A stretch of 64,000 nt of DNA from Enterococcus timonensis. Lineage in GTDB: Bacteria > Bacillota > Bacilli > Lactobacillales > Enterococcaceae. The notes beneath the pieces are model-generated. The model was not told the DNA's origin and did no database searches. It saw only the letters and a list, made by a program, of their open reading frames with translations. A program made the translations under genes and the position numbers. Shown in pieces: positions 1,544-49,693 of the stretch; positions within the stretch are counted from its first letter, which is position 1; every line of letters begins with the position of its first letter. The stretch covers positions 1 through 64,000 of the forward strand of contig NZ_FNVY01000002.1 of assembly GCF_900104595.1 (NCBI RefSeq), in the 5' to 3' direction.

Positions 1544-1773
1544 TAGGAGTTGCAAATGTTGCTTGAAATGAAAACAAAAACAGGGTGAAATATTGTCCAT
1601 CCTCGTTTAATAGATGCACAAAAGTAGAAACTCGCTTGATCAAGAAGAGAAAATTCTATTTTTGTCTTTTTTTTGCCCAAAAATCAGGGGTAAAAGACGA
1701 TGTAAAGAAAATTTAATCTTTGCAATGTTTTTGTAACATTTCTTCTTTTTGAATAAATAAAGGAGTGAAGAGC

Positions 1774-4700
1774 TTGGCTGGACACGTAGTTAAATACGGA
1801 AAGCACCGAGAACGTAGAAGTTTTGCACGGATTTCGGAAGTTTTAGAATTACCAAACTTGATTGAAATTCAATCCGACTCTTATCAATGGTTTTTAGATG
1901 AAGGCCTCAAGGAAATGTTTGAGGATGTCTTACCCATTGAAGATTTCAATGGCAATTTATCATTGGAATTTGTCGATTATGACCTGAAAGAACCAAAGTA
2001 CACTGTCGCTGAAGCACGGGCACATGATGCCAACTATTCAGCACCACTACATGTAACTTTACGTCTTGCTAACCGCGAAACTGGCGAAATCAAAGCTCAA
2101 GAAGTTTTCTTTGGCGATTTCCCACTGATGACTGAACAAGGAACCTTCATTATTAATGGTGCCGAACGGGTTATCGTTTCTCAATTAGTTCGTTCACCAG
2201 GAGTTTATTTCCATGGTAAAGTGGATAAAAATGGTAAAGAAGGCTTTGGCTCAACAATGATTCCTAACCGCGGTGCGTGGTTGGAAATGGAAACTGACGC
2301 TAAAGATATTTCTTATGTACGGATTGACCGGACGCGAAAAATTCCAATGACCGCTTTAATTCGGGCGTTGGGCTTTGGCTCAGATGACACGATTCTATCG
2401 ATGTTTGGTGATGCGTTAACTTTACGTAACACAATCGAAAAAGATCTTCACAAAAATCCAGGCGATTCCCGCGCTGAAGAAGGATTAAAAGATATTTACG
2501 AGCGACTCCGCCCAGGCGAACCTAAAACGGCTGATTCTTCACGGAATTTACTGAATGCTCGTTTCTTTGATCCAAAACGTTATGATTTAGCGAATGTGGG
2601 TCGTTATAAAGTCAATAAAAAACTCGATTTATCCACACGTTTATTGAATTTAACTTTAGCTGAAACTTTAGTTGATGCTGAAACTGGCGAAATTCTAGTC
2701 GAAAAAGGTGTCGAAATGACGCACGAAGTCATGGACAACTTGAAACCATATTTATTGGCCGGCTTAAATGCGGTCACTTTCTATCCTTCTGAAGATGCGG
2801 TAGTCACTGAACCTATGACTGTCCAAATCATTAAAGTGATTTCTCCAAACGATCCTGAACGGGTTGTTTCAGTTATTGGTAATGGCTACCTTGGCGATAA
2901 AGTGAAAACTGTTCGTCCCGCTGACATGATTGCTTCCATGAGTTATTTCTTTAACTTAATGGATGGTATCGGCAATGTCGATGATATTGATCACTTAGGG
3001 AATCGTCGGATTCGTTCCGTGGGTGAATTACTACAAAATCAATTCCGGATTGGTTTGTCTCGGATGGAACGTGTCGTTCGCGAACGGATGTCCATTCAAG
3101 ATCAAGAAACCATTACACCACAACAGTTGATTAATATTCGTCCAGTTGTTGCTTCAATTAAAGAATTCTTCGGTTCTTCTCAGTTATCACAATTTATGGA
3201 TCAAACCAATCCTTTAGGGGAATTGACTCATAAACGTCGGCTATCTGCCTTAGGGCCTGGTGGTTTGACACGGGATCGCGCTGGTTATGAAGTCCGAGAT
3301 GTACATTACACGCACTATGGCCGGATGTGTCCAATTGAAACGCCAGAAGGTCCAAATATTGGGTTGATTAACTCGCTTGCTTCTTATTCTAAAGTAAATA
3401 AATACGGCTTTATTGAAACACCTTATCGCCGGGTCGATTGGAAAACGCACCATGTTACCAATCGTATTGATTATTTGACTGCTGATATTGAAGATCACTA
3501 TATTGTAGCGCAAGCAAACTCCCCATTAAATGACGATGGAACTTTTAAAGAAGATATCGTTATGGCGCGTTCTCAATCAGAAAACTTGGAAGTAACGATT
3601 GATAAAGTAGATTACATGGATGTATCGCCTAAACAAGTAGTTGCTGTGGCTACCGCTTGTATTCCTTTCTTGGAAAACGATGACTCCAACCGGGCTTTGA
3701 TGGGTGCCAACATGCAGCGGCAAGCTGTACCGTTGATTAATCCTCATTCTCCAATCGTGGGAACTGGGATGGAATTTAAATCTGCCCATGACTCAGGTGC
3801 TGCTTTATTATGTAAAAATGATGGAACTGTTGAATATGTAGATGCCGGCGAAGTTCGCGTGCGTCGCGCTGATGGTTCTTTAGATAAATATGTAGTTACT
3901 AAATTCCGTCGTTCTAACTCAGGAACAAGTTACAACCAACGTCCGATTGTTCATGTTGGTGAAATTGTAGAAGTTGGCGATACTTTAGCTGACGGACCTT
4001 CCATGGAAGAAGGAGAATTAGCTCTTGGACAAAATCCATTAGTGGCCTTCATGACTTGGGATGGTTATAACTATGAAGATGCTATTATCATGAGCCGTCG
4101 TTTGGTAAAAGATGATGTCTACACTTCCATTCATATTGAAGAATATGAATCAGAAGCACGTGACACGAAATTAGGACCTGAAGAAATCACAAGAGAAATT
4201 CCGAATGTCGGCGAAGATACTTTGAAAAATCTCGATGAAATGGGTATTATCCGCATCGGGGCTGAAGTAAAAGACGGCGATTTATTAGTCGGAAAAGTAA
4301 CACCAAAAGGGGTCACTGAATTATCTGCTGAAGAACGTTTACTACACGCTATTTTCGGTGAAAAAGCGCGTGAAGTTCGCGATACTTCATTACGTGTTCC
4401 TCACGGCGGTGGCGGGATTGTTCACGATGTTAAAATCTTTACTAGAGCAGCTGATGACGAATTGTCACCAGGAGTAAACATGCTCGTTCGAGTTTACATT
4501 GTCCAAAAACGTAAAATTCATGAAGGCGATAAAATGGCTGGACGGCATGGTAACAAAGGGGTTGTCTCTTTGATTATGCCTGAAGAAGATATGCCATTCT
4601 TACCAGATGGCACACCAGTGGATATCATGTTGAATCCATTAGGGGTACCTTCACGGATGAATATCGGACAAGTTTTGGAATTACATTTAGGGATGGCTGC

Positions 4701-5376
4701 TCGGTCATTAGGTATTCATGTTGCGACACCAGTATTTGATGGCGCTAATGATGACGATGTTTGGGAAACAGTCAAAGAAGCTGGAATGGCTAGTGACGCT
4801 AAAACAGTCTTGTATGACGGACGGACCGGGGAACCATTTGATAACCGGATTTCAGTTGGTGTAATGTACATGATTAAATTAGCCCACATGGTTGATGATA
4901 AATTGCATGCTCGTTCGACTGGACCTTATTCTCTAGTAACGCAACAACCATTGGGTGGTAAAGCTCAATTTGGTGGACAACGTTTCGGGGAAATGGAAGT
5001 TTGGGCCCTAGAAGCATACGGCGCAGCTTACACATTACAAGAAATCTTAACTTACAAATCAGATGACGTAGTTGGTCGGGTGAAAACCTACGAAGCAATC
5101 GTCAAAGGCGATCCAATTCCAAAACCAGGCGTACCAGAATCATTCCGCGTATTGGTTAAAGAATTACAAGCTTTAGGTCTTGATTTGCGAGTATTAGATA
5201 ATGAAGATGCAGAAATCGAATTACGGGATATGGACGACGACGATGATCTAATCACCGTTGACGCCATGGCTAAATTCCAAGAACAACAAAGTGCAAAAGA
5301 AATCGAAAAACAAGCCACAGTAGAAGATATCCAAGCAGACGAAGCACTAGACGAAGCAATCGACGATGAAGAGTAA
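1774..5376 (+). CDS. rpoB: DNA-directed RNA polymerase subunit beta
   Basis: Beta subunit of RNA polymerase, forming with RpoC the catalytic cleft. The length of 1200 aa fits the family in Firmicutes. The rifampicin-binding cluster lies at about residues 465-497 ([20 protein letters not shown] then LSALG), and the residues associated with sensitivity (Q, D, H, S) look wild type. The C-terminus is very acidic, which is common in enterococci. The start is taken as TTG at 1774, giving [21 protein letters not shown] sits 8 nt upstream. A GTG at 1765 overlaps this ribosome binding site and is unlikely. Cotranscribed with rpoC, but 213 bp containing a structured repeat lie between them. Confidence 0.97.
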
Positions 5377-5493
5377 GGATGTCGAAAAGGCGTTAAGCAG
5401 TGTAGAGAAATAGGAAAATAATTAAAAATCCCGGTTTTGGATTTTCAATTATTTTATCTTTTCTCCTAACTGCTGCCTTTGAGACACCGTCAA
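5375..5493 (+). repeat. Structured hairpin repeat, single copy (R1), between rpoB and rpoC
   Basis: One copy of the 116-121 bp family. It starts at the second base of the rpoB stop codon (AAGGATGTCG) and ends in GACACCGTCAA. Fold: outer stem, 4-nt bulge GTTA, inner stem AGCAGT / ACTGCT (perfect), GTAGAGAAATAGG arm paired with the TCTTTTCTCCTA arm, and the AT-rich tip module with AAAATCC / GGATTTT. No T-run follows, so it is not a classical terminator. Confidence 0.85.
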
Positions 5494-5523
5494 TAAGGTC
5501 ATCATCAAAGATCAATCTCGTCT

Positions 5524-17857: not shown

Positions 17858-17916
17858 AATTGAGGCTTACGATTTTTTGTGCATTTAAAAATAAAATATT
17901 TTTTGGAGGAACTTTT

Positions 17917-18732
17917 ATGAAAATTCGCCGCAGTGAACGACTGATTGATTTAACCCAATATTTGCTCAACCATCCCCATGAACTGATTTCGCTAACTTTT
18001 TTTGCCAAACGCTTTTCCTCAGCAAAATCTTCCATTAGTGAAGACATTGCGATTATTAAAAAAACTTTCAAAGAGCGGGGACTTGGCGTGGTGGAAACTT
18101 TGCCAGGGGCGGCCGGCGGTGTCGTGTTTACACCAGCCATTTCTGAGAGCGTCGCTAAGCAAATGATTGCCGATTTGTCAGAAAAATTATCCCAACAAGA
18201 TCGCTTACTGCCTGGTGGCTACGTTTATTTATCCGATTTATTAGGGCAACCCGAATTATTGCGCCAAGTCGGCCAAATTATCGCCTCCAAATATCTCGGC
18301 AAAAAAATTGACGCCGTTATGACGGTGGCTACAAAAGGCGTGCCGATTGCCCAAGCCGTCGCTTATTATTTAAATGTGCCCTTTGTAATTGTCCGCCGCG
18401 ACAGCAAAATCACAGAAGGCGCCACGGTGAGCGTTAATTATGTTTCCGGCAGCTCAGAGCGGATTGAAAAAATGGAACTTTCTAAGCGCAGTTTGAAATC
18501 CGGTTCGCGCGTCTTAGTGGTGGACGACTTTATGAAAGGCGGCGGCACCGTCAACGGCATGAAGTCCATGATTGAAGAATTCGACTGCGAACTTGTAGGC
18601 ATCACCGTTTTTGCCGAATCGAATTTCAAAGGACGCCGCCAAGTAGAAGACTACACCAGCTTACTTTACGTCGAAAATGTCGACACCGCCACAAAAACCA
18701 TCAGTGTCGTACCAGGGAATATATTTGAATAA
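17917..18732 (+). CDS. purR: Purine operon regulator PurR
   Basis: PRPP-sensing regulator of purine synthesis genes. The 271-aa protein has an N-terminal winged helix (about 1-75, MKIRRSERLIDLTQYLLNHP) and a type I phosphoribosyltransferase-like domain with PRPP motif VLVVDDFMKGGGT (about 198-210). GGAGGA precedes the ATG; the longer frame start is inside the promoter region. Its stop codon is directly merged with the first unit of a four-copy repeat array. Confidence 0.93.
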   Translation: MKIRRSERLIDLTQYLLNHPHELISLTFFAKRFSSAKSSISEDIAIIKKTFKERGLGVVETLPGAAGGVVFTPAISESVAKQMIADLSEKLSQQDRLLPGGYVYLSDLLGQPELLRQVGQIIASKYLGKKIDAVMTVATKGVPIAQAVAYYLNVPFVIVRRDSKITEGATVSVNYVSGSSERIEKMELSKRSLKSGSRVLVVDDFMKGGGTVNGMKSMIEEFDCELVGITVFAESNFKGRRQVEDYTSLLYVENVDTATKTISVVPGNIFE

Positions 18733-19204
18733 GGATGTGAAAAATGCGTTATGTGGTGTAGAGAATTAGGAAAATTTTTCGAAAATCCCGAAGTTGGATT
18801 TTTAAAAATTTTATCTATTCTCCTAACCACAGCTTTTTTCACACCGTGAATAAGGATGTCGAAAAGCTGATTTGCGCTGTAGAAATTTAGGGAAATGGTG
18901 AATGAACGCAAAGCGGTCAGTAGGCATTTTGTCTAATTTCCTAAGCGCAGGCTTTGAGACACCGTCAAAAAAAGGATGTCGAAGGCGCGAACAGGGACGT
19001 AGAAAAATAGAGATTCTGAATGCGAATGGAACATTCGCCGGAAGAATCATCTTTTTTCCTAGTCACTGCGCCTAAGACACCGTCAAAAAAAGGATGTCGA
19101 AAGAACGGGTTGCTCCGTAGAAAATTAGAAAAACTGAGGATGAATGGAACATTCAACAGAAGTTCTATCTTTTTCCCTAACTGCTGGACAAAACACACCG
19201 TCAA
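18731..19204 (+). repeat. Tandem array of four structured hairpin repeats (R2a-R2d)
   Basis: Copies at 18731-18848, 18852-18968, 18972-19087 and 19090-19204, head to tail with 118-121 bp steps. Each opens with AAGGATGTSG and closes with ACACCG. Inner-stem pairs: R2a TGTGGT/ACCACA, R2b TGCGCT/AGCGCA, R2c AGGGAC/GTCACT (one mismatch), R2d TGCTCC/ACTGCT (not complementary, see findings). Bulges: GTTA, GATT, GAAC, GGGT. Tips: AT-rich module (R2a), ACGC-AAA-GCG module (R2b), GAATG-GAA-CATTC module (R2c, R2d). The first copy starts inside the purR stop codon; the last ends 38 nt before the rpiR start. Confidence 0.9.
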
Positions 19205-19242
19205 TCAAAACCCCACCCCAACAATCTGTGAAAGGAGCACTC

Positions 19243-20571: not shown

Positions 20572-20819
20572 GACAACCTGATGAACGGTGTCTTAAGAAC
20601 TGCTCCTAGGAAAATAGATAAAACTTCTGTCGAATGTTCCATTCATCCTCAGTTTTCCTAATTTTCTACGGAGCAAATCGTTCTTTCGACAACCTATGAT
20701 TCACGGTGTGAAAAAGGCTGTGGTTAGGAGAATAGATAAAATTTTTAAAAATCCAGAAGCAGGATTTTCGAAAAATTTTCCTAATTCTCTACACCCCAGA
20801 ACGCTTTTTTCACAACCTT
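20572..20819 (-). repeat. Two structured hairpin repeats in reverse orientation (R3) plus an end remnant
   Basis: On the minus strand, copies run 20819-20698 (R3b) and 20695-20583 (R3a). Both begin AAGGTTGTS and end near ACACCG. Inner stems: R3a TGCTCC/GGAGCA perfect, R3b TGGGGT/ACCACA with one mismatch. Bulges GATT and GTTC. Tips: GAATG-GAA-CATTC type (R3a) and AT-rich type (R3b). An isolated GACAACCT at 20572-20579 looks like the outer end of a third, deleted copy. The array ends 19 nt before the GH1 start codon. Confidence 0.88.
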
Positions 20820-20826
20820 ACTTTAA

Positions 20827-23813
<2,987 letters not shown>

Positions 23814-36677: not shown

Positions 36678-38042
36678 ATGGCCAAAAAAAGTAAAACAGA
36701 ATTTGTTTGTCAAAACTGCGGTTATAACTCGCCGAAATATCTCGGGCGTTGTCCAAATTGTGGCGCCTGGAATCAAATGGTGGAAGAAATTATTGCCCCA
36801 GAAAAAGAAACGCTGGCCGGACTTAAGACCGTGGCCGCTAAAGCTCAACGCCTTAAAGAAGTGAATTTGGAAAATCAACCGCGAACGAAAACGGCGATGC
36901 CAGAATTAAATCGAGTTTTAGGTGGCGGCGTGGTGCCGGGTTCTTTAGTTTTAATCGGCGGCGATCCCGGGATTGGAAAATCGACTTTACTTTTACAAGT
37001 GTCGGCTCAATTAGCAGCCAAAGCGGGGAAAGTTTTATATGTTTCTGGCGAAGAATCAGCCACGCAAATTAAAATGCGCGCCACTCGTCTCGGGGTGACG
37101 GCGGATGATTTTTATATTTATCCGGAAACTGATTTAGGATTAATTTCGCAAACGATTCAGCAGCTGAAACCAGATTTTGTCATTATTGATTCGATTCAAA
37201 CAATGCAACACCCGGAAATTACTTCAGCAGCCGGTTCCGTTTCGCAAGTGCGAGAAGTCACCGCAAGCCTGATGCAAATTGCCAAAACTAGCCAGATTGC
37301 CATCTTTATTGTAGGCCACGTCACCAAAGACGGCGCCATTGCCGGACCAAGAATGTTAGAGCATATGGTAGACACGGTTTTGTATTTTGAAGGGGAACGT
37401 CATCATACGTTTCGTATTTTGCGGGCGGTGAAAAATCGTTTCGGTTCCACCAATGAAATCGGAATTTTTGAAATGCGGGAAGAAGGATTAAAAGAAGTTT
37501 TAAATCCTTCTGAAGTTTTTTTGGAAGAAAGACTGGCGGGCTCCACCGGTTCAGCGATTGTTGTTTCCATGGAAGGAACGCGCCCGATTTTAGTAGAAAT
37601 CCAAGCGCTTGTTACGCCTACCATGTTCGGTAACGCCAAGCGCACAACGGCTGGACTTGATTACAATCGAGTCAGCTTAATTATGGCGGTTTTAGAAAAA
37701 CGAGCCGGACTATTGTTACAAAATCAAGATGCCTATTTAAAAGCGGCCGGCGGTGTGAAGTTGGACGAACCGGCGATTGATTTAGCGATTGCCGTCAGCC
37801 TTGCTTCGTCTTATCAAGAAAAAGAAACGGCTGTAAATGAATGTTTTATCGGCGAACTGGGCTTAACCGGAGAAATCCGCCGCGTCAATCGTATCGATCA
37901 ACGCTTAGGCGAAGCACAAAAACTAGGTTTCACCAAAGTTTATTTGCCAAAAAATAATCTCGACGGCCTAAAAATCCCCAAAGGCCTCACCCTAATCGGC
38001 GTATCAACAATAAGAGAAACCCTAAAAAAAGTCTTTGGATAA
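36678..38042 (+). CDS. radA: DNA repair protein RadA
   Basis: RecA-like ATPase that helps branch migration in recombination repair. The 454-aa protein has a C4 zinc finger (Cys11, 14, 25, 28), Walker [11 protein letters not shown] (94-103), the RadA motif [11 protein letters not shown] (about 253-263) and a C-terminal Lon-protease-like domain without a need for the catalytic Ser. The ribosome binding site is poor (TAAGTAAG), suggesting coupling to dut. Its stop codon abuts a three-copy repeat array. Confidence 0.95.
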
Positions 38043-38391
38043 AGGATGTGTTTTGAACGGTTAATGGCGTAGAAAATTAGGAAAATGGTGTATGAACGCA
38101 AAGCGGTCAGAAGGCATTTTATCTATTTTCCTAGCCATTGTTCAAACCACACCGAAAAAAAGGATGTCGCAAGCGCGGTTAGGGACGTGGAAAAATAGGA
38201 ATTCTGAATGCGAATGGAACATTCGCCAGAAGAATTATCTTTTTTCCTAGTCGCTGCGCTTAACACACCGAAAAAAAGGTTGTCGCAAGCGCGGTTAATG
38301 GCGTAGGAAAATAGGAAAATTTTTGAAAATTGCTTTTTGATTTTTAAATAATTTTATCTTTTTCCCTAGCCATTGCGCTTAAGACACCGTA
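38042..38391 (+). repeat. Tandem array of three structured hairpin repeats (R4a-R4c)
   Basis: Copies at 38042-38154, 38160-38270 and 38276-38391, steps of 118 and 116 bp. The first starts at the last base of the radA stop codon. Inner stems: AATGGC/GCCATT (R4a), AGGGAC/GTCGCT (R4b, one mismatch), AATGGC/GCCATT (R4c). All three bulges are GGTT. Tips: ACGC-AAA-GCG type (R4a), GCGAATG-GAA-CATTCGC type (R4b), AT-rich type (R4c). R4b is nearly identical in its tip to R2c at the other locus. Confidence 0.9.
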
Positions 38392-38456
38392 AAAAAGTTA
38401 CAACAAACAACAAACACAAAACAAAAATCTCAAAAAAACTAAAAAGGAGGATTTCT

Positions 38457-48353: not shown

Positions 48354-48746
48354 GTGAAAATCTATCGGCAATTTTTTTATATTTTACTTTGTTCATTCAT
48401 TGGTGAATTAATTAAAAGTTTGCTCGGGTTACCGATTCCTGGCAGCGTAGTAGGCATGATTATTTTATTTATTGCGTTAGAATCAAAAATTTTAAAAATC
48501 GAGGACGTCAAAGAGGCCGGAGCGTGGTTGCTTGGTAATTTGACGATTTTATTTGTACCGGCGGGCGTCGGAGTAATGGTGAGTTTTTCGGCGCTGAAAG
48601 ATATTTGGTATATTTTGGCACTGGTTTCCCTGATGGTGACCGCCATTTCCATGGGAGTTGTGGGCGTGATTGTCCAAAAAATCAAGCGGCGCTTTGAAGG
48701 AAGTTATCTAGATATTGACGACAAGGCCAAGGAGGAGGACAAATGA
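48354..48746 (+). CDS. lrgA: Holin-like murein hydrolase regulator LrgA/CidA
   Basis: Small membrane protein of the CidA/LrgA family (130 aa, four helices) that with LrgB affects autolysis and, in some bacteria, pyruvate uptake. Family motif LLGLPIPGSVVGMIILF is visible. The start is GTG at 48354 with AAGGGGGA upstream; the longer frame begins inside the divergent HAD gene and has no ribosome binding site. The TGA overlaps the lrgB ATG. No lytSR pair is present in the window. Confidence 0.85.
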   Translation: MKIYRQFFYILLCSFIGELIKSLLGLPIPGSVVGMIILFIALESKILKIEDVKEAGAWLLGNLTILFVPAGVGVMVSFSALKDIWYILALVSLMVTAISMGVVGVIVQKIKRRFEGSYLDIDDKAKEEDK

Positions 48747-49435
48747 AGGAGTTAACTAGCAATCCGTTATTTGGTTTGGTCTTATCGATTGGCGTTTTTT
48801 TGCTCGCTTCACGCCTGTTCAAAAGATTTCCATATCCATTTTTTAATCCATTAGTCGTTTCTACTGTTGTGATTATTTTATTTTTAAAACTTACCGGCAT
48901 TTCTTACGACGACTATTATGAAGGCGGAAAAATGCTCAACACTTTAATCACGCCAGCGACAGTCGCACTAGGAATTCCACTTTATAATACGTTGCACTTA
49001 TTAAAACGCCACGCCCGTTCGATTTTAGTCGGTATTGTCACCGGATCTTTGATCAGTGGCGTGATGATGATTTTATTCGGCCGCTTGTTTCGTTTGGAAG
49101 ATGCGGTATTAATTTCTGTCGTCCCTAAAAATGTGACAACAGCGATTGCCTTAGAATTAGCTGAAGGTCTCGGCGGGATTTCGGCGGTAACTTTAGTGAT
49201 GGTGATTTTTACCGGCATTTCTGGATCAATTATGAGTCCCTTTATTTTGAAATTATTTCGCGTTACTGATCCGGTGGCCCAAGGAATTGCATTAGGATCA
49301 ACGGCGCACGCTATCGGCACGGCGCGGGCGATGGAACTAGGCGAAGTCCAAGGCGCCATGAGCGGCCTTTCCATCGGCGTCACCGGCACCATCACCGTCT
49401 TTGTCATGCCCGTCCTCTTGAATTTGTTAACATAG
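48743..49435 (+). CDS. lrgB: LrgB/CidB-family membrane protein
   Basis: Partner of LrgA, 230 aa with six to seven membrane helices; typical segments are SVVPKNVTTAIALELAEGLGG and GSTAHAIGTARAMELGE. Translationally coupled to lrgA (4-nt overlap). Its TAG stop codon is merged with the first R5 repeat. Confidence 0.9.
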   Translation: MKELTSNPLFGLVLSIGVFLLASRLFKRFPYPFFNPLVVSTVVIILFLKLTGISYDDYYEGGKMLNTLITPATVALGIPLYNTLHLLKRHARSILVGIVTGSLISGVMMILFGRLFRLEDAVLISVVPKNVTTAIALELAEGLGGISAVTLVMVIFTGISGSIMSPFILKLFRVTDPVAQGIALGSTAHAIGTARAMELGEVQGAMSGLSIGVTGTITVFVMPVLLNLLT

Positions 49436-49681
49436 GATATTTTTTCTGCGTTTAAGGCTTATAAAAAATAGGGAAATGGTGAATGAACGGAGCGTTCAGC
49501 AGGCATTTCATCTTTTTTTCCAAGCCTTGCATAAAAAATACTGATAAATAGGATATTTTTTCTGCGTTTAAGGCTTATAAAAAATAGGGAAATGGTGAAT
49601 GAACGGAACGTTCAGCAGGCATTTCATCTTTTTTTCCAAGCCTTGCATAAAAAATACCGAAAAATAGGATATTTTTTCTGC
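49434..49681 (+). repeat. Two tandem hairpin repeats and a partial third (R5), divergent subfamily
   Basis: Copies begin at 49434, 49550 and 49666, exactly 116 bp apart; the third is cut after about 16 nt. They open with AGGATATTTTTTCTGC instead of AAGGATGTCG and close with ATACYG, but share the fold: bulge GTTT, inner stem AAGGCTT/AAGCCTT, ATAGGGAAATG arm, and tip TGAACG-GAR-CGTTCA. The first two copies differ at few positions, mainly in the tip loop (GAG versus GAA) and the terminal ACTGA/ACCGA. The first starts in the lrgB stop codon. Confidence 0.9.
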
Positions 49682-49693
49682 CTTAAACCAAAT

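Follow-up and report, generated by a model that had tools for sequence, protein, structure and literature searches.

What is maintained in a family of hairpin repeats that differ widely in sequence, and why do these repeats lie where they do with respect to genes? The window, meaning the whole stretch of 64,000 nt of DNA that was analysed, raises this question at five loci, which together hold 12 full copies of the hairpin and one truncated copy, with a unit length of about 116-124 nt. The initial annotation had claimed eleven or more copies at five intergenic loci, and all five are real. A single unit is located at 5374-5494 on the plus strand, its TAA being the stop codon of the rpoB-like open reading frame (ORF) 1765-5376. 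The second locus is an array of four plus-strand units (18730-18848, 18851-18967, 18970-19085 and 19088-19205, the last with the lowest score of the units, 90.9 bits), which begins at the stop codon of the ORF 17860-18732, whose putative product, judged by position and sequence, is PurR-like. The third locus, on the minus strand, is a reversed pair, of which unit 1 (20704-20818) adjoins with its 5' end the Shine-Dalgarno sequence of the gene starting at 20839, an antisense placement, and unit 2 occupies 20582-20697. Three plus-strand units (38041-38155, 38158-38271 and 38275-38392, the last with an AT-rich tip) follow one another from the stop codon of glmU (36678-38042) onwards. The last array, also on the plus strand, overlaps the stop codon of the ORF 48743-49435 and consists of a unit at 49432-49543 and its local duplicate at 49548-49659 (97% identical); behind them, the 3'-truncated remnant of a further, thirteenth unit (49664-49690, plus strand) precedes an AT-rich hairpin which is terminator-like in appearance and for which a simple terminator scan gave no call. 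Of the five arrays in the window, four have their start at the stop of the upstream gene, a point absent from the earlier description.

The consensus that RNAalifold derives from the 12 window copies has 36 pairs, 25 of which show double changes, and the covariance model that results (R1) comprises 119 positions and these 36 pairs. Eleven of the 12 full window copies fold singly into the same hairpin; the copy at 19088-19205 has another minimum-energy fold when taken alone, yet fits the common structure in the alignment. At the base of the hairpin, GG-N-TGTC pairs with GACACC around a one-base bulge. Above this follow a 2x2 loop, a stem of 6-7 bp, a one-sided 4-nt bulge, two stems of 6 bp each with a GTA/CTA loop between them, a single bulged T, a G-T pair that is constant and, finally, one of two tips. 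Among 108 copies from the same genome, between which sequence identity goes down to 50-60%, 96.5% of the pair cells are standard pairs, 30 pairs show double changes, and covariation amounts to 0.601, against 0.188 in shuffled controls and at most 0.123 when the partners are slid. Two cross-genus sets (66 and 116 distinct copies) give covariation values of 0.775 and 0.735 against about 0.20 in the control, with 94% paired and double changes in all 36 pairs. The shuffled controls keep the relatedness among copies in, and the slid controls were run besides; given the latter and the agreement across genera, chance is a very unlikely source of the covariation.

While the stems covary, the asymmetric unpaired features are nearly invariant, as the first base of the 4-nt bulge is a G in 106 of 108 copies, the single T bulge is present in 106 and the GTA/CTA loop in 98. 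Wobble pairs outside the constant G-T pair make up 2-3% of cells, a scarcity that fits a DNA hairpin, or an RNA that needs a very stable stem. On the plus strand of the element, G-T mismatches outnumber A-C mismatches (76:45 in the own genome, 69:16 in other genera), and by this excess the plus strand appears to be the folded one. These observations support the fold of one strand, bulges included, as the form that is maintained, which is what the initial annotation had proposed, together with a single fold whose stem strands change together and a one-sided 4-nt bulge beginning with G. Its three exchangeable tip modules need correction: there are two tip architectures, since both 'GAATGAAC..GTTC' tips share one plan. 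Its remark that no T-run follows is accurate directly after the hairpin, but arrays often sit between the stop codon and an ordinary terminator (for example at C2:93995). The comparison with Rfam that it had suggested gave no match above the gathering score, and identity with an Rfam RNA family is rejected on that ground.

A search of the whole genome and of its relatives, likewise suggested before, extended the family far beyond the window. R1 finds at least 150 copies in the own genome, and when the extra copies from a local search are added to the R1 matches, these occupy about 82 loci, namely 34 single units and 48 tandem arrays of at least two units. Although built from window copies only, R1 matches in 64 of 149 related genomes, representing 18 of 43 genera and several families of the order, and also in Lactococcus laudensis; with a copy from genus g16 as query, relatives appear on plasmids of Enterococcus, Lactococcus and Streptococcus. 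For 91 of 122 array units the nearest relative belongs to a different array, and near-identical units are found at differing array positions, which indicates that units move singly; local duplication has occurred too in some arrays. An array polarity with the young unit first is rejected, as first and last units are alike. In many arrays the last unit is 3'-truncated or decayed, so that the left ends often outnumber the units by one (n+1 against n).

Some individual loci deserve mention here. One locus in two species (L117 and L119) has a full second hairpin in one case and a version without the tip in the other, as expected if a DNA hairpin were lost in replication. The arrays L111-L118 of genus g8 are composite, with a second repeat module of about 75 nt (..TTCAACATCAG..TCACTGTGTTTC..AGC) between or after the hairpin units. 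A polysaccharide deacetylase gene with a hairpin at its stop codon (L200 and L201) is common to plasmids of L. lactis, E. faecium and E. faecalis, with an IS6-type transposase, in one case that of IS1216, upstream in both loci. An empty site was sought for the L. plantarum aspT plasmid, and the element is present on every close plasmid.

The preference for stop codons holds throughout the genome, where the start of 62 of the 82 arrays lies at most 17 nt from the stop codon of a gene in the same orientation (uniform intergenic expectation 6.4%, p = 2e-56), and 67 of the 82 are in sense orientation. The commonest junction is a GG straight after the stop codon. The stop of rpoB bears hairpins separately in three genera (G000, G111 and G020). 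In this lineage the elements join by their 5' end at the stop of a co-oriented gene. The arrays of genus g8 (L202-L221) are antisense, their 5' end adjoining the Shine-Dalgarno sequence of the neighbour with a near-constant junction (..cctcctaa followed by ATTTAAAAGC), and the window pair at 20582-20818 is placed in the same way.

Genes that end at an array also carry a distinct pattern of silent substitutions. In the 0-120 nt upstream of arrays, C/(C+T) is 0.67 against 0.34 in the control (p = 3e-132) and A/(A+G) is 0.83 against 0.65 (p = 1e-34); the tract fades over about 200 nt upstream, and nothing similar is observed downstream. Among the last 15 codons, C is the third base in 67% of the two-fold pyrimidine codons (29% in controls) and A in 98% of the two-fold purine codons (84% in controls), and leucine is encoded by CTR in 46% (16% in controls); the use of amino acids is almost unmoved, so the changes are silent. 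The purine:pyrimidine ratio in these codons stays the same (0.47 vs. 0.46), which is the outcome expected of transitions. Beyond codon 15, however, purines drop as well (0.31-0.39 vs. 0.45), and CGA is not enriched; transitions alone are therefore insufficient, and codon selection or other changes contribute. The aligned silent sites of the last 20 codons show 23 changes from T to C and three from C to T, against 19 and 32 in controls.

This tract belongs to the array and not to the gene, as array-free genes and orthologs lack it. An A/C score of at least 0.75 is reached by 62.5% of array genes and by one of 262 control genes, and that lone control gene then turned out to be followed by a hairpin missed by the search. 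For nine genes with same-genus orthologs in G001, the sister species, the score is 0.761 in the own genome and 0.531 in G001, with the ortholog lower in all nine; one of the nine orthologs has a hairpin-like sequence past its stop. Control genes in the same comparison score 0.518 and 0.492. In the window, 82% (0.825) of the third positions of the last 40 codons of glmU (37923-38042, plus strand) are A or C, while 80 orthologs have a mean of 46% and a maximum of 63%. The corresponding values, all on the plus strand, are 78% for the ORF 17860-18732 (18613-18732), 70% for the ORF 48743-49435 (49316-49435), and 82% for the rpoB-like ORF (5257-5376), which is a weak example because its orthologs are also about 55-80% A/C there, owing to amino-acid content. 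Other families show the tract as well; it recurs in g26 (p = 5e-18), in G099 (0.94 and 0.94, p = 3e-10) and, weaker, in g16/g4 (p = 2e-4). Next to an upstream gene in antisense orientation it is faint or missing, and likewise in the E. faecalis copies examined, and its strength does not depend on the number of units or on their apparent youth. As far as the literature was searched, neither the placement at stop codons nor the polar rewriting of host genes has been described.

My preferred reading, put forward tentatively but as a plausible one, is that mobile hairpins anchor low-fidelity copying of the adjacent strand. The repeats would be mobile but non-autonomous hairpins, members of a family that spans the order and takes in EFAR/Efa-1, and the form recognised may be the plus strand folded, as the covariation shows, into one long hairpin with fixed bulges. 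As the mosaic arrays show, units have spread one at a time, both to new sites and into arrays that were already there. At or after joining, low-fidelity synthesis of the complementary strand could start from the hairpin base, either with the paired 3' end of the hairpin as a fold-back primer, or by a switch of the hairpin copy to a new template, the mRNA end at the stop codon. Such copying would span some 100-200 nt of the 3' end of the gene and tolerate G-T (G-U) pairs, and the copied strand would recombine back, leaving the polar tract of T-to-C and G-to-A changes that is observed. If a complementary strand were synthesised with tolerance of G-T (G-U) pairs, T>C and G>A changes would be expected together on one strand. 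The tract begins at the base of the hairpin, weakens with distance and extends upstream only, all of which agrees with copying that starts there. The wider proposition, that a widespread mobile hairpin anchors directional low-fidelity copying which repeatedly rewrites the 3' ends of host genes (coding-strand changes T>C and G>A) with no dedicated reverse transcriptase, and thus represents a new mechanism of transposition or mutagenesis tied to stop codons, is possible, and I hold it with some more reserve. If true, such repeats join genes at a landmark that only translation defines, the stop codon, and the mutational trace that they leave in host genes can be measured, which makes the movement of orphan miniature elements directly testable. 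Codon usage and silent-site divergence near gene ends could then reflect a neighbouring repeat instead of translational selection.

Alternatively, the sense orientation of 67 of 82 arrays and their placement at the stop could mean that the hairpins are selected 3'-UTR elements, which protect the mRNA or provide a control point between stop codon and terminator, the A/C-rich gene ends being selected to keep the mRNA ahead of the hairpin unpaired or smoothly read. Wobble pairs favouring the transcribed strand and a tract tied to sense genes agree with this explanation, but I consider it unlikely. The ends of array genes are no less folded than their own synonymous-codon shuffles (z = -0.13 +- 0.14), and selection for unfolded mRNA is rejected, as there is no signal beyond composition. 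Moreover, the units are mosaic and mobile, and it is C-ending fourfold codons and CTA that increase, codons which look non-optimal in AT-rich Firmicutes. Rho-dependent termination, for which a C-rich, G-poor tract would serve as rut site, is not the reason either and is rejected, since G000 and G099 have no Rho. It also seems very improbable that elements choose, or survive best beside, genes that are already A/C-rich at their 3' end. A preference for certain sequences at insertion is possible in principle, but almost no array-free gene has such an end, and neither the sister species nor 80 other genomes show the tract in their orthologs, so that this explanation, lacking a reservoir among the controls, is rejected.

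The structure itself admits two further explanations. Long imperfect palindromes undergo quasi-palindrome correction, and the covariation could be mutational, caused by template switching between the arms and not by selection on the fold, as would agree with nearly all pairs being Watson-Crick. Such correction would, however, erase bulges and loops, yet the 4-nt bulge and the T bulge (106 of 108 copies each) and the GTA/CTA loop (98 of 108) are kept across genera, which leaves this an improbable cause. A DNA-only miniature element is a doubtful but less far-fetched option; here a putative transposase would act on the folded single strand, as on REP or IS200/IS605 ends, and the tract would result from strand-specific damage or error-prone replication by the hairpin, with no RNA step. 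The wobble pairs, at just 2-3% of cells, an internal hairpin deletion between copies of G054 and G009, and bulges that are strictly kept, as in the ssDNA hairpins read by TnpA or integrases, would all be in line with this. On the other hand, the genome has no match to the Y1 (HUH) transposase of the IS200/IS605 type (PF01797), no ORF recurs at the arrays except ABC ATPases, and the single insertion sequence that adjoins two arrays is ISL3-like with unrelated ends. In addition, the tract depends on gene orientation, unlike replication effects, and deamination of one strand should not yield T>C and G>A equally.

For the copying reading that I prefer, candidates for the polymerase and the mobilising enzyme were sought, and none was found. 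No autonomous insertion sequence with matching ends is present among the genes at the arrays, and the ISL3 element is rejected as an autonomous partner because its ends differ from those of the hairpin. Its two copies beside hairpin arrays, L148 (C1:162598-164094) and L162 (C1:~513.7-515.2 kb), are 97% identical and have the ends GGCTCTATAATTTATTGGACTGATAG / GGCTCAATGTCAAATCGGACTGATAG (at each end, one further letter is uncertain). With regard to the characters of a miniature inverted-repeat element, the ends of the repeats pair, GG-N-TGTC with GACACC, with a bulge; the n+1 left-end pattern is observed, and no clean target-site duplication was seen.

Among known repeats, EFAR of E. faecalis had been named earlier as the nearest comparison. 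The EFAR repeat, the subject of a 2007 paper in FEMS Microbiol Lett, is reportedly about 170 bp long and L-shaped, and is said to insert into the stem-loops of terminators, parts of the target stem being left in place. As to this insertion mode, 5'-end remnants and terminators follow the arrays here. R1 recognises the copies L313-L317 on E. faecalis contigs with E = 5e-10 to 1e-4, so that EFAR is a relative and not an analogy alone. A hairpin followed some 14 nt later by a terminator-like hairpin, jointly about 165-170 bp, occurs in G008, G021, G037 and G070, on L. plantarum plasmids and on E. faecalis contigs, and the Efa-1 element of E. faecalis (163 bp, 65 copies) is a pair of adjacent stem-loops (PMC2267715). 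On the basis of these matches and this layout, I place the window repeats and EFAR/Efa-1 in what is probably one family, of which the window holds a single-hairpin, tandem-array variant. Both have the same long hairpin with the same bulge plan and are intergenic, dispersed and modular. The window units, however, do not have the layout of two stem-loops in about 165-170 bp, but are single hairpins of about 116-124 nt, often in head-to-tail arrays and with no attached terminator-like hairpin, and unlike the E. faecalis copies examined they are located at stop codons, with an upstream codon tract. The earlier reading was to fall with a match to an already described element of the same architecture; the homology to EFAR/Efa-1 does mean that the element is not wholly new, but its order-wide spread, its placement at stops and the silent rewriting were unanticipated. 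If the placement is true, EFAR-like repeats are one old family across a bacterial order. The sequences that carry L313-L318 (OR846587, OR846609, OR846596, OR846624, OR846590 and OR848313) are deposited as Enterococcus and Listeria phages; they look like bacterial host contigs (SPAdes nodes of at most 161 kb, repeat-rich), the 'Listeria' ones apparently enterococcal.

Other known systems share single traits with the repeats. BOX, RUP and SPRITE of Streptococcus pneumoniae are also small structured interspersed repeats near genes, BOX being modular. In BOX and RUP, terminal inverted repeats are accompanied by target-site duplications; the part of the source that treats them reports neither stop-codon precision nor upstream rewriting (PMC3049150). 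R1 has no match in the named pneumococcal-group loci. REP/BIME sequences and REPINs with their RAYT transposases are likewise extragenic hairpins in high copy number, show strand-specific features and contain a GTAG motif, but theirs are hairpins of 20-40 nt, whereas GTAG lies here inside a 120-nt hairpin, and membership of the REP/RAYT group is rejected because the genome has no Y1 transposase. Integron attC sites resemble the repeats in their conserved structure and variable sequence, single-stranded hairpins, extrahelical bases and arrays, but the window repeats have neither cassettes nor conserved R boxes, and no cassette ORFs were found between array units.

Diversity-generating retroelements (DGRs) and intron co-conversion tracts offer a parallel to the tract, since in these, too, error-prone copying leaves a polar mutated or converted stretch beside an element. 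In DGRs, however, a single gene is the target and A is replaced by any base, while the changes here are T>C and G>A, silent, and spread over dozens of genes, and the hairpin repeats have no dedicated reverse transcriptase. Such an enzyme is disfavoured: the sole reverse transcriptase in the genome is a DGR-like prophage gene, reverse transcriptases are not associated with the element across genomes (33 of 64 positive genomes vs. 42 of 85 others), and G099, which has the strongest tract, has none. The prophage gene encodes an RVT_1 protein of 352 aa (L242:1306-2364) in an apparent prophage DGR (L242, G000:C1:~567800-571400), and the ORF beside it ends in GGRWTDSSNAGGFYWNLGDWSAARDRGIGGRLVYVA, like the variable proteins of DGRs.
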